Source: Candidatus Gastranaerophilales bacterium (GTDB lineage: Bacteria > Cyanobacteriota > Vampirovibrionia > Gastranaerophilales > Gastranaerophilaceae). Taken from it: DNA of 64,000 bases. Shown here one piece after another: positions 24,949-29,636 of this stretch. Made by a program: the position numbers and the translations under genes. A model generated the notes under the pieces. The model was not told the origin of the DNA, made no database searches, and was given only the letters and a program-made list of their open reading frames with translations. The stretch's first letter is position 1; each line of letters begins with the position of its first letter. The stretch spans positions 1-64,000 of the forward strand of contig CALUYO010000005.1 in the NCBI GenBank assembly GCA_944325005.1. Reading direction: 5' to 3'.

Positions 24949-27165
24949 TTATGTCCCTTTTTTTTTCGGATTTTTATTATGTCTTGGCTTCCCGTTATTT
25001 CTTTTCGGCATATTCGGGGTTGAATAGGATGTTTGAATTCGTTTTACACTGTATACATCAGGTATTGCCTGTATACTTAAAATAACTTTTTTCAATGTGT
25101 CAATGTTATCCAGTTCTATTCCCAACTCGATAATACCTACTTTTCCCCCTTTAGATTTTACATTTGCATAATTAATATTGGTATTATTATCTGATACCGC
25201 AGCAATAATATCTTTTAGTAGCCCCTGTTTTTCTGCTGTTTCAACTCTGATTGTTGTATTGTATGTTTTGTTAACATTATCGCCTGACCAGCGTATATCC
25301 ATTAATCTTTCCGGTTCTATATGATCAAGCATTTGACAGTCCATTCTGTGAACAGTAACCCCTTTGGCCCTTGTAACAACTCCTACTATAGGTTCTCCGG
25401 GTATTGGAGAGCAGCATTTAGCTATTGAATATAATAAACCCTCCAGGCCTATTATATCTTTTTCAGATTTTTTTCTTTTGGGACCATGGAATGAAGCTTC
25501 GGAAGGTTTTGTTGGTTCCGGCTTTTTGAGTTTATTAATTATTTTGTTTAATGTTGTCTCACCATATCCCAGTGCTGCAAATAAATCTTCGGCAGAAAGA
25601 TAATTCATCTGTTTTGCTACTTTGTCAAACTCTCCTGATTTCATGTAATCATCAAATACTGCTTTGGTAAGTTCATGTTCAAGGTTTGATTTACCTACAT
25701 CAATATGTTCTTCACGGTTATTTTTCTTAAACCATTGTTTAATTTTCGAGGATGCCTGCTTGGTCACTACAAAATTTAACCAGTCAAGACGTGGGGCAGG
25801 TGTTTTTGATGTTAGAATTTCAACGATATCACCATTTTTGAGTTTCGTATCAAGCTGTGCAATTCTTCCGTTAATAAGTGCTCCAACTGTTTTATTACCG
25901 ACTTCTGAGTGAATTCTGTATGCAAAGTCTACAGGTGTTGCATTTACAGGTAAGTCAAATACGTCGCCATTAGGCGTGAATGCAAATACCTGATCAGAGA
26001 ATAAATCAAGTTTAACAGAATTAACATAATCTTCGGCAGATGTCATATCTTTATCATATTCAACAAGCTTTCTCATCCAGGAAAACTGCATATCTGTCGG
26101 ATTATTGGCCTTTTGTGAGCCTTTTTCTTTGTAGCGCCAGTGTGCGGCAATACCATATTCAGCTACTTCATGCATTTCCCATGTCCTGATTTGAACTTCA
26201 AGAGGTTTTGAGCGCGGACCGATTACAGAAGTGTGTAATGACTGATACATATTACCTTTTGGCATGGCTATGTAGTCTTTAAACCTTCCAGGAATTGGTT
26301 TAAACTGAGAATGAATAAGCCCTAAAACTTCATAGCATTCTTTTTCTGTATCAACTATAACTCTTACTGCTGTTATGTCATATAAATCATGGAATGCAAT
26401 ATTCAGCCGTTTCATTTTGCTGTAGATACTGTAATAATGTTTTGCCCGTCCGGTAATCTGTGCGTTAATACCTGCTTTTTTTACATCTGCTGTAATTTTA
26501 TCTATAAGAATTTTTACTGTTTCTTCTCTGCTGGCTTTTGTTTGTGATACAAGACGTGCAATTTCAAAATATTTATCAGGTTCCAGATACCTTAGGGACA
26601 AATCCTCAAGCTCTGCTTTAATTTTGTAGATACCTAAACGGTTTGCAAGCGGTGCGAAAATATCAAGAGTTTCTCTTGCGATTTTCTGTTGTTTGCTTGT
26701 TGTCATGAAATTCAGGGTTCTCATGTTATGCAGTCTGTCAGCAAGTTTTAAAAATACTATTCTGATATCATTTGCCATTGCGATAAAAAGACGTCTGAAA
26801 TTTTCGGCCTGACGTTCTTCTTTTGATTTGAACTGCAGTTTCCCGAGTTTCGTAACACCTTGAACAAGTGTTAAAACATCTTTTCCGAACAATTTTTCAA
26901 TTTCTTCAGGTTTTGTATCGGTATCTTCAAGAATATCATGTAAAAACGCTGCTTGAAGAGTATGAGAATCCACTTTTAGTCCGACAAGAATTTTTGCGAC
27001 TTCGACAGGATGAATAATATAAGGTTCTTCAGATATTCGGTATTGACCTTCATGCAATCTTTTTGCAAAAAGATATGCTTTTTCTATTTGTTCAATTTCT
27101 TCCGGTTCTCTGTTCTGTGCAATAAGCTCTTGTTTTATATCATTAAAAAGTGGTTTTTCGGTCAT
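24949..27165 (-). CDS. rel: Bifunctional (p)ppGpp synthetase/hydrolase (Rel/SpoT type)
   Basis: 738 residues. HD hydrolase domain first (EEPYIIHPVEVAKIL, HDILEDTDT), then the synthetase domain with RFKDYIAMPKGNMYQSLHT, TGS domain (VFAFTPNGDVFDLP), a zinc-finger-like region with AKCCSPIPGEPIVG, and a C-terminal ACT domain. The RFKD motif is the form found in SpoT and bifunctional Rel, against EFDD in RelA. It sets the stringent response in the cytosol. Promoter elements place the transcript start about three bases before the ATG, so the message is nearly leaderless. Confidence 0.95.
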   Translation of the reverse strand: MTEKPLFNDIKQELIAQNREPEEIEQIEKAYLFAKRLHEGQYRISEEPYIIHPVEVAKILVGLKVDSHTLQAAFLHDILEDTDTKPEEIEKLFGKDVLTLVQGVTKLGKLQFKSKEERQAENFRRLFIAMANDIRIVFLKLADRLHNMRTLNFMTTSKQQKIARETLDIFAPLANRLGIYKIKAELEDLSLRYLEPDKYFEIARLVSQTKASREETVKILIDKITADVKKAGINAQITGRAKHYYSIYSKMKRLNIAFHDLYDITAVRVIVDTEKECYEVLGLIHSQFKPIPGRFKDYIAMPKGNMYQSLHTSVIGPRSKPLEVQIRTWEMHEVAEYGIAAHWRYKEKGSQKANNPTDMQFSWMRKLVEYDKDMTSAEDYVNSVKLDLFSDQVFAFTPNGDVFDLPVNATPVDFAYRIHSEVGNKTVGALINGRIAQLDTKLKNGDIVEILTSKTPAPRLDWLNFVVTKQASSKIKQWFKKNNREEHIDVGKSNLEHELTKAVFDDYMKSGEFDKVAKQMNYLSAEDLFAALGYGETTLNKIINKLKKPEPTKPSEASFHGPKRKKSEKDIIGLEGLLYSIAKCCSPIPGEPIVGVVTRAKGVTVHRMDCQMLDHIEPERLMDIRWSGDNVNKTYNTTIRVETAEKQGLLKDIIAAVSDNNTNINYANVKSKGGKVGIIELGIELDNIDTLKKVILSIQAIPDVYSVKRIQTSYSTPNMPKRNNGKPRHNKNPKKKGT

Positions 27166-27586: not shown

Positions 27587-28138
27587 ATGGAAATTAATAG
27601 AATTGATAATAGTATAAATTATAGTAAAAAATGTAATGCACCTTCTTTTAAAGCCGGTATTAGCAGCAGATTATTTAGCAAACTTCGGCAGGACGGTGCT
27701 GATATTGTTGAAATAATGAAAAAAACTGATGATATATATAATATAAATGATAAAAATTTTGTACTTGCTGATGCAGTGTACAATGCAAAAGAAAAAACGG
27801 CAGATTTCTTCTTGTCTGCAGTAGATATGATAAAATTTATTCCGGGGTTAGAAAACGTAAGCCCAAAAGTCGTTAAGGCAAAAGGTGAAAAACTTTCTGA
27901 TGCTTTTCAAAATATTAAATTAAATGATTTAAAACAGGCTAATATGTCACTTGCAGCCGGATATAATAAACGTTACGAAGAAACAAAGCCATTACGTGCT
28001 GAATTAAAATCTAAACGTGAGGCTGTAGAAGCAAAACTTAAAGAAAAATTTGAAAAAGCTGACGGTTTTTGGAATAATTATTATAGAAAACTGGACGAAG
28101 CTAAAGATAAGCTTGCAAAAAATGTTACTTTAGGTTAG
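27587..28138 (+). CDS. Unknown protein with an N-terminal PSFKAG motif
   Basis: 183 residues behind a GAAGGAG site. The N terminus is polar and Asn-rich (MEINRIDNSINYSKKCNAPS) and ends with FKAG near residue 21, a short motif seen in several other unrelated proteins here. The rest is helical and lysine-rich, with a likely coiled coil near the C terminus (RAELKSKREAVEAKLKEKFE). No signal peptide or recognised domain. It may share a transcript with the leader ORF and membrane protein that follow. Confidence 0.75.
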   Translation: MEINRIDNSINYSKKCNAPSFKAGISSRLFSKLRQDGADIVEIMKKTDDIYNINDKNFVLADAVYNAKEKTADFFLSAVDMIKFIPGLENVSPKVVKAKGEKLSDAFQNIKLNDLKQANMSLAAGYNKRYEETKPLRAELKSKREAVEAKLKEKFEKADGFWNNYYRKLDEAKDKLAKNVTLG

Positions 28139-28160
28139 AATAACATATACAGGAAAAATA

Positions 28161-28226
28161 ATGATTAAAAACAATTCTTTAAAATTGCATCATATACATT
28201 ATCATAGCGTCCTTGGAAGGCTATGA
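28161..28226 (+). CDS. Histidine-rich 21-residue leader peptide (candidate regulatory uORF)
   Basis: ATG 28161 has its own AGGA six bases upstream. The peptide is MIKNNSLKLHHIHYHSVLG plus RL, with four His in the six codons 10-15. The stop codon (28224-28226) falls inside the left arm of the strong hairpin described at 28210. The position, length, ribosome site and codon bias are those of an attenuator leader peptide. Whether histidine is truly the signal is inference. Confidence 0.5.
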   Translation: MIKNNSLKLHHIHYHSVLGRL

Positions 28227-28353
28227 ATTGATGTTTTACGCTTTTAAAGAATAAAAAATGAATTTCAATTCTTATAAAATAGTCTTTCAAGGAACCCTTT
28301 AAAAAGCGTTGTGAGACTGTTTACAGAACTTTATGTTCTATTAAGAATTGGAG
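28210..28353 (+). promoter_or_regulatory. Candidate RNA switch: hairpin, crossing stem and anti-Shine-Dalgarno
   Basis: Arm A 28210-28224 pairs with 28279-28293 over 15 bp, of which two are G-U, and 28225-28230 (GAATTG) pairs with 28266-28271 (CAATTC). Segment 28238-28249 in the loop pairs with 28297-28309 (12 bp, one bulged A). Segment 28263-28274 can instead pair with 28342-28353 (12 bp, two G-U), covering the GGAG ribosome site of the gene at 28362. Hairpin A uses part of the anti-SD segment, so the two folds exclude each other. The wobble pairs fit an RNA on the plus strand. Confidence 0.5.
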
Positions 28354-28361
28354 AAAATAAG

Positions 28362-29636
28362 ATGACAATAACAAATATAATTTCAGCTATAGGAAATAAT
28401 AGCAGTGTATACCCCTTAATAGTCCGCGATTGCGGGATTGAAGTACCTACTAAAATTATTCTTACTTATGATCAGAATAAGAAAGAATCAAAAGGTATAG
28501 CATATCTTGCCGCAAGAGAACGCTTTCTTGATGAATATGCTACATCAGCTGTCTGGCTTGGTGGTATTCCTCTGGTGGGCTGGCTTGTTGATAAATATAT
28601 AAAAACTAAAGGCCTTAATCCTAAAGTAAATTTGAAATTATTTAAAGAAGAAGCAGGGATTCAAGGGATTGATTATAATATCAATAAGTTTAAAAATTCT
28701 GCACCGGAGGCTGTGAAGGATTTGCTAAAAGTTAAAGAAAATAAAAAACTTTATGAGAAACTTCTTGCAGGAAAATTTATTGCATCAACAACAATTCCAA
28801 TTCTTTTTATGGGCTTTATTCTACCTAAATTAATTTTTGCTTCATCTGCAAAGAAAATTGAAAAGCTAAGAAGCAAAGAGGCTGAAAAGAAAAATTATGT
28901 TCAGCAAATAAGTTTTTTACAAAAAGATAAATTCTATAAGTCCAAAGATATTAATTTTACGGGAAGCTGGATTACAAAGGCCGCAAACTTCTCCGCGCAG
29001 GACAAAATGGCTGTAACCGACGGAGGATATGCGGCAGGCAGAATTATTACAGCACGTAATAAGAATGAACGTTATGATTTAACTTTTAAAATGGCCGGCA
29101 TGATGTTTCTTAACTTTGTCGCTCCAAAATGGATTGAGAAGGGGTTAAACCGAATTACCGGAGTAGAACTTGATCCTCTGATACTGGCCGACAAAGAGTT
29201 CGCTAAGCAAATAAAAGAAGGAACTTTAAAGCTTCCGGCAAATAACTCTCCTGTTGAACTTCTTGAATTTGTAGATAATATTGAAAATAAGGACACTCTT
29301 TTCATAAAATATGCGAAAAAGTTTGGCAAAATTAAAATGCTTGATAGCGGGATTAGAGATCCGCGCGAATATGTTGATATAAAAAAACTCGGAAAATTCA
29401 GAAATGATATTGAAAATTTTGCCTCAAATGCCTTAAAAAATTCTGATTTTAGCGGTTTTGTCAAAAAAGCAAGAGTTGCAAAATCCGCAAATATTATCAC
29501 AAATGTTGCTTTAAGCAGTTTTCTTCTTGCTTACATATTGCCTAAAGCTCAATTTGCATTTAGAAAACTTATTACAGGATCTGATCTGGAACCGGGGTTA
29601 GCTCCTGCTGAAAAAATTGTTGATAATAAAGAATAA
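28362..29636 (+). CDS. Unknown membrane protein (424 aa)
   Basis: ATG 28362 is preferred because TTGGAG lies nine bases before it; an open frame extends upstream through the leader but has no site. About four hydrophobic segments are visible (WLGGIPLVGWLV, STTIPILFMGFILPKLIFA, MAGMMFLNFVAP, NVALSSFLLAYILPKA). Between them are lysine-rich loops, one with DINFTGSW. I recognise no family. Its ribosome site is within a candidate RNA switch. The gene ends four bases from a convergent pilin-like gene. Confidence 0.75.
   Translation: MTITNIISAIGNNSSVYPLIVRDCGIEVPTKIILTYDQNKKESKGIAYLAARERFLDEYATSAVWLGGIPLVGWLVDKYIKTKGLNPKVNLKLFKEEAGIQGIDYNINKFKNSAPEAVKDLLKVKENKKLYEKLLAGKFIASTTIPILFMGFILPKLIFASSAKKIEKLRSKEAEKKNYVQQISFLQKDKFYKSKDINFTGSWITKAANFSAQDKMAVTDGGYAAGRIITARNKNERYDLTFKMAGMMFLNFVAPKWIEKGLNRITGVELDPLILADKEFAKQIKEGTLKLPANNSPVELLEFVDNIENKDTLFIKYAKKFGKIKMLDSGIRDPREYVDIKKLGKFRNDIENFASNALKNSDFSGFVKKARVAKSANIITNVALSSFLLAYILPKAQFAFRKLITGSDLEPGLAPAEKIVDNKE

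Follow-up and report, generated by a model that had tools for sequence, protein, structure and literature searches.

What would a run of histidine codons sense in a bacterium in whose genome hisD (histidinol dehydrogenase) and hisG are not found? The question is raised by a 64,000-nucleotide stretch of DNA (the window) from a 99.95%-complete, 2.0 Mb genome of Candidatus Gastranaerophilales, in which a short histidine-rich open reading frame (ORF) precedes the gene for a 424-residue, probably membrane-bound protein. We consider it likely that this leader is a histidine-codon attenuator of the membrane protein, by which histidine-auxotrophic Gastranaerophilales obtain histidine. Comparative computation established the parts of the switch with their conservation and covariation, the direction in which it is predicted to act and the anticorrelation of the gene with hisD; from these we infer ribosome stalling, a shortage of charged His-tRNA as its cause, and a protein that brings in histidine. 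The target would then be a histidine-acquisition protein, possibly acting in transport, controlled by the supply of His-tRNA. The elements of the locus, including the Shine-Dalgarno (SD) region and the segment complementary to it (anti-SD), are as follows.

28161..28226, plus strand: leader peptide ORF MIKNNSLKLHHIHYHSVLGRL, 21 residues, whose TGA stop falls where arm A ends; a histidine-rich leader is present in 80/80 related loci.
28188..28205, plus strand: sensor, four histidine codons in six (CAT CAT ATA CAT TAT CAT); the HHxHHH-type run is kept and the surrounding residues are variable.
28210..28230, plus strand: arm A (UCCUUGGAAGGCUAU) plus its GAAUUG extension, the 5' arm of the predicted ON hairpin, pairing with 28266-28293.
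28238..28249, plus strand: D, a loop segment pairing with D' (pseudoknot); covariation z -5.7.
28263..28274, plus strand: anti-SD segment UUUCAAUUCUUA, pairing in the ON state with the GAAUUG that follows A and in the OFF state with the SD; covariation with the SD, z -6.9.
28277..28293, plus strand: arm B (AAAUAGUCUUUCAAGGA), pairing with A (ON) or C (OFF).
28297..28309, plus strand: D', between B and C, pairing with D; covariation as for D.
28313..28322, plus strand: arm C (GAGACUGUUU), with a U-run that is degenerate here; B:C covariation z -8.2.
28342..28353, plus strand: UAAGAAUUGGAG, the target gene's SD region and the complement of 28263-28274; AAGAATTGGAG is retained in most relatives.
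28362..29636, plus strand: target gene, encoding a mostly helical, probably membrane protein of 424 residues and no known family; proposed histidine-acquisition protein, on the basis of its presence against hisD.

A sequence-only reading of this DNA had described the leader ORF with its own ribosome site (AGGA, 6 nucleotides 5' of the start), the hairpin, the pairing of the anti-SD with the SD and the helix that crosses the hairpin. All four lie where that reading had placed them, and arm C, which it overlooked, competes for the same B arm. The leader region is more stable than all 200 dinucleotide shuffles of it (z -3.6), and, depending on the length of leader left free, RNAfold returns the hairpin or the fold that covers the SD.

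When the homologues of the downstream protein, whose named records are mostly Candidatus Gastranaerophilales assemblies, are examined together with their upstream regions, the histidine-rich ORF is found at every one of the 80 loci, 127-214 nucleotides 5' of the homologue and in a variant form in further genera. Conservation of the ORF, the hairpin and the anti-SD alongside the gene was the check that the sequence-only reading had proposed, and all three are so conserved. Arm A starts about 5 nucleotides past the last histidine codon in nearly all relatives. It pairs with B at 12/12 positions in 52/81 sequences and at no fewer than 11/12 in 69/81, and the paired sequence changes by lineage (CCUUGGAAGGCU:AGUCUUUCAAGG, CCUGAAAAGGCU:GGCCUUUUCAGG, CCCGAAAGGGCU:GGCUCUUUCGGG). 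Covariation was tested by permuting arms between 32 divergent loci (5000 permutations) and comparing pairing energies; for each of the four helices, 0/5000 permutations reached the observed value. The mean energies of matched and permuted arms were -22.5 vs -13.5 for A:B (z -10.3, an overestimate, since pairing with A was also the means of locating B), -15.0 vs -10.3 for B:C, -12.0 vs -9.7 for anti-SD:SD and -9.0 vs -7.1 for D:D'. This covariation supports a predicted set of mutually exclusive helices that share one arm. D:D' joins the A:B loop to the stretch between B and C, thereby crossing A:B, and sequence comparison identifies it as a conserved pseudoknot (examples are ACGCUUUU:AAAAGCGU, GGUGCU:AGCACU and UUGUUCGU:ACGAACAG).

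We propose that the switch would work in the following way. With charged His-tRNA scarce, a ribosome would stall at 28188-28205 and leave arm A free; A would pair with B, joined by the D:D' pseudoknot, B would be kept off C, the anti-SD CAAUUC would be occupied and the gene would be expressed. With His-tRNA plentiful, the ribosome would go on to the stop, where A ends, and cover A, in which case B:C would form, CAAUUC would pair with the SD and the gene would be off. In many relatives B:C and its U-run would act as a transcription terminator; in the window, where the U-run is lost, the ribosome-binding site would most likely be hidden. In part of the genus (L100-L104 and L106) TGG replaces the window's TGA stop and the leader, ending in LWDWWCTL, runs on to a TAA within arm D; a ribosome completing it would therefore cover D as well as A.

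The direction of the switch was modelled by folding the leader with a ribosome either at the second histidine codon (stalled) or at the stop, using a rough footprint and ignoring the pseudoknot. Across 77 loci, the mean computed probability of the B:C helix, P(B:C), was 0.15 stalled vs 0.83 at the stop; it fell by more than 0.2 on stalling in 59/77 loci and rose in 0. In the window itself P(B:C) was 0.00 stalled vs 0.91 at the stop. The position of the ribosome is thus predicted to select opposite folds. In these models the window's SD is paired both in the absence of a ribosome and with one at the stop, and stalling leaves it partly free.

The link to histidine comes from the distribution of the gene. 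Gut Melainabacteria were reported in 2013 to be without histidine and arginine production (PMC3787301), and hisD was absent in all 33 genomes of the genus that were searched, the window's own included. In a survey of 192 genomes of the family, nearly all of them at least 90% complete, the target gene alone was found in 114, hisD alone in 46, both in 3 and neither in 29. hisD is therefore present in 3/117 carriers of the gene vs 46/75 non-carriers (Fisher p 9e-21, which is too small because the shared ancestry of the genomes inflates significance). The exclusion recurs within genera: g6 has seven genomes with the gene only, three with hisD only and one with both; g21 has five, six and none; and g41 has one, nine and none. 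A leader borrowed from a his operon was also considered and rejected, as no histidine-rich leader was present 5' of hisD in ten relatives.

Paralogues of the target extend the pattern to a second amino acid. A family member on contig C17 of the window's genome is preceded by two tandem arginine-codon leaders, MNYQLRRIVRLMKGLL, which is followed by a terminator-like hairpin, and then MKNNIRRNSTIKANAPIVKLMNLIWGL. Among 20 further congeners that were fetched, at least one arginine-codon leader was present in 20/20 and both in 16/20; order-level relatives have similar leaders, and no histidine-rich leader was found in 15 loci of these paralogues. argG is missing from the genus and from most genomes of order-level relatives with such paralogues; the correlation is smaller and weaker than the one with hisD. 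Each protein thus appears to serve the amino acid that its leader's codons specify. At the C17 paralogue (L175; L059) and at L178-L197 the second leader ends in a conserved NLIWGL. Past its arginine codons lies an arm complementary to an SD-proximal stretch, with a sequence that varies among order-level relatives (ATAACTCAAG:CTTGAGTTAT, TACTCAAA:TTTGAGTA, TACACAA:TTGTGTA). A third paralogue, on contig C9, has no visible leader.

The target protein had been called an unknown membrane protein in the sequence-only reading. It has no match in Pfam, NCBIfam, PHROGs and PDB sequence searches, including any to a his family, but the family tracks the loss of histidine biosynthesis. An AlphaFold2 model built from 40 sequences is helical (predicted local distance difference test, pLDDT, 80; predicted template modelling score, pTM, 0.74). 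A Foldseek search of this model against the PDB gave a best E value of 0.4 and no convincing fold match, and the best VIA-align hit (Z 5.5 over 71 residues) is background for helical proteins, so no fold was assigned.

Several observations weigh against histidine acquisition through this switch. The 29 genomes with neither the gene nor hisD and the three with both do not follow the exclusion. Sequence and fold searches detected no resemblance of the protein to known transporters, a result with which a transporter would still be compatible, and its roughly four membrane-spanning helices, read from the sequence and the model, are few for a transporter acting alone. D:D' is weak individually in most sequences, within reach of shuffles. 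No terminator and no U-run were detected in the window (GACUGUUUACAG), and the mean unpaired probability of its UGGAG changes modestly, being about 0.30 with the ribosome stalled vs about 0.11 with it at the stop. Over all relatives the mean SD exposure hardly changes (0.50 vs 0.44); SD accessibility was therefore rejected as a universal output, and B:C formation was measured instead.

The same attenuator might serve another role, in which low histidine signals starvation or a host niche and the protein acts in the envelope, in adhesion or in protein degradation. The missing similarity to transporters favors such a role, and amino-acid limitation is reported to act as a host signal in other bacteria (PMC5864092). 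We nevertheless regard it as unlikely, given the near mutual exclusion with hisD that recurs within genera and the arginine-leader paralogues in lineages without argG. Taken together, these two patterns are better explained by acquisition of the cognate amino acid than by other roles.

A related question is what the switch acts on. In many relatives arm C is GACUAUUUUUU, B:C resembles an intrinsic terminator with C as its 3' half, and a U-run (at least 6 U in 8) follows B:C in 39/77 loci. From the U-run relatives, transcription termination would be the ancestral output or one that arose in parallel. In the window, CAAUUC-B and C-GAAUUGG align as a single long helix over the SD. Because this helix covers the SD and the U-run is missing, the output in the window and its close relatives is probably translational, by hiding of the SD, with transcriptional control in other relatives. 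The sequence-only reading had held that a stall at the histidine codons exposes the SD and that reaching the stop blocks it. Conservation, covariation and folding uphold this logic, but the account lacked arm C and the U-run terminator output of about half of the relatives. It could instead be argued that only the terminator branch ever mattered and that the window's leader is a relic in decay, with the gene expressed constitutively, in keeping with the degenerate U-run, the undetected terminator and the weak SD switch found by folding. This is improbable, since the sub-clade of the window retains A, B, C, D, D', the anti-SD, the SD and the histidine codons, and since B:C continues into the SD pairing to form one long helix, which has the look of a switched output and not of decay. 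At a different locus, L154, only a short, weak leader is present (MYHHSYGTHG), and the leader may be decaying there.

What the leader senses can be judged from the peptides themselves. Outside the histidine codons they differ widely between genera (examples are MLQNQSLKLHHIHHHSDLERLWDWWCTL, MQSRFTTRQHHNHHIVPIRL and MFTPSVKRHHHNHHHCH), which argues for sensing of codons and not for a peptide signal. A search for the leader pattern within the genus marks the target gene, with at most one match per genome except for two extra matches with three mismatches. Histidine-rich peptides bind metals in general, and a nascent histidine-rich chain might arrest the ribosome in response to a small molecule or a metal, and not to the charging of His-tRNA. 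Leaders of the genus do keep L-K-L/F before the histidine run, with synonymous changes. Across genera, however, only the histidine codons persist and their flanks change completely; the paralogues use arginine codons instead, and a metal would leave the hisD anticorrelation unexplained. We consider an arrest peptide very improbable. Chance complementarity in AT-rich DNA, within whose reach individual helices and above all D:D' do fall, is almost certainly not the explanation, being already refuted by the 80/80 leaders and the covariation.

At one locus (L062, G062:C93) two consecutive histidine-rich ORFs lie 5' of the homologue, MNTLFTQAERHHHHN followed by a terminator-like hairpin and then a second ORF with HHHHCEHH, an arrangement that suggests tandem attenuators. 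The gene and its leader also occur in L096, L133 and L155, titled Fusobacterium sp. CAG:439, Heliobacteriaceae bacterium and uncultured Brachyspira, which are therefore probably mislabelled Gastranaerophilales.

With a conserved short ORF that carries a run of one amino acid's codons 5' of a gene, covarying helices that exclude one another and opposite folds computed for the two ribosome positions, the locus has the sequence and folding features of amino-acid leader-peptide attenuators; a hairpin with a U-run after it, as in a transcription attenuator with an intrinsic terminator, was not found in the window and is present in the 39/77 relatives. As in the his operon leader of enterobacteria (hisL, RF00514), the position of the ribosome would select between mutually exclusive RNA folds, and a terminator form exists, here in many relatives. 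Unlike hisL, the element precedes no his biosynthesis operon but one orphan gene for a membrane protein, in organisms that lack the his pathway, and there are three arms in place of the classical ladder, a pseudoknot and, in the window, a probable SD-hiding output. The window has no match to RF00514 even at E 10, nor have eight relatives at E 1, and it has no match to the covariance model of the T-box riboswitch (RF00230). Rfam at curated and permissive thresholds returned nothing meaningful, the permissive matches being sub-threshold and to unrelated families. In translational attenuation of erm/cat-type antibiotic resistance genes, a ribosome stalled on a leader uncovers a concealed ribosome-binding site; the stalling there is caused by a drug, whereas a shortage of charged tRNA is the cause proposed here.

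In Firmicutes, candidate histidine attenuators have been described independently on his operons (Bacillus cereus group, Peptostreptococcaceae, Erysipelotrichales), and auxotrophs of that phylum are reported to place histidine transporters under T-box control (PMC9413887). Those attenuators are likewise histidine-codon leaders with terminator and antiterminator, distinct from RF00514 and discovered by comparison; they differ in phylum and in controlling his biosynthesis and/or known ATP-binding cassette (ABC) transporter operons, and the available part of the report mentions neither a pseudoknot nor an SD-hiding output. The LEU element 5' of leuA in Actinobacteria also combines an amino-acid-codon leader ORF, a pseudoknot and pairing of the Shine-Dalgarno box, but its target is leucine biosynthesis, it is the leucine codons that pair with the SD, and the reported evidence argues against classical attenuation (PMC1262725). 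A literature search, outside which most subscription journals lay, found no paper on attenuators in Melainabacteria. The attenuator is thus a variant of leader-peptide attenuation whose target family and biological setting look new.

Two further features lie near the leader. The first is a candidate promoter, weak when taken alone.

28113..28141, plus strand: candidate sigma-70 promoter TTGCAA-N17-TAGAAT, 9/12 consensus.

The arrangement TTGCAA-N17-TAGxAT is also legible 5' of the leader in several congeners (e.g. L003, L004), and a transcription start from the candidate promoter would fall about 10-15 nucleotides 5' of the leader ORF. The second, at 24949-27165 on the minus strand and about 1 kb from the leader, is a gene judged from its sequence to be RelA/SpoT-like; its proximity may be coincidence.

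A wider proposal, to which we would give even chances, is that this undescribed family of Gastranaerophilales membrane proteins provides amino-acid-specific uptake of histidine and arginine in auxotrophs, each member under a leader of its own substrate's codons, and that the histidine switch is a pseudoknotted anti-terminator whose output has shifted between termination and ribosome-binding-site hiding within the evolution of one lineage. If this is true, leader codons would offer a direct, testable prediction of substrate for an orphan membrane-protein family, and the two amino acids a clue for culturing gut bacteria that are mostly uncultured. Ribosome-mediated attenuation would gain a branch, with a pseudoknot, in the sister group of the cyanobacteria, and variants found in nature, with output (terminator or hidden ribosome site) as their main difference, would allow attenuator evolution to be tested side by side.
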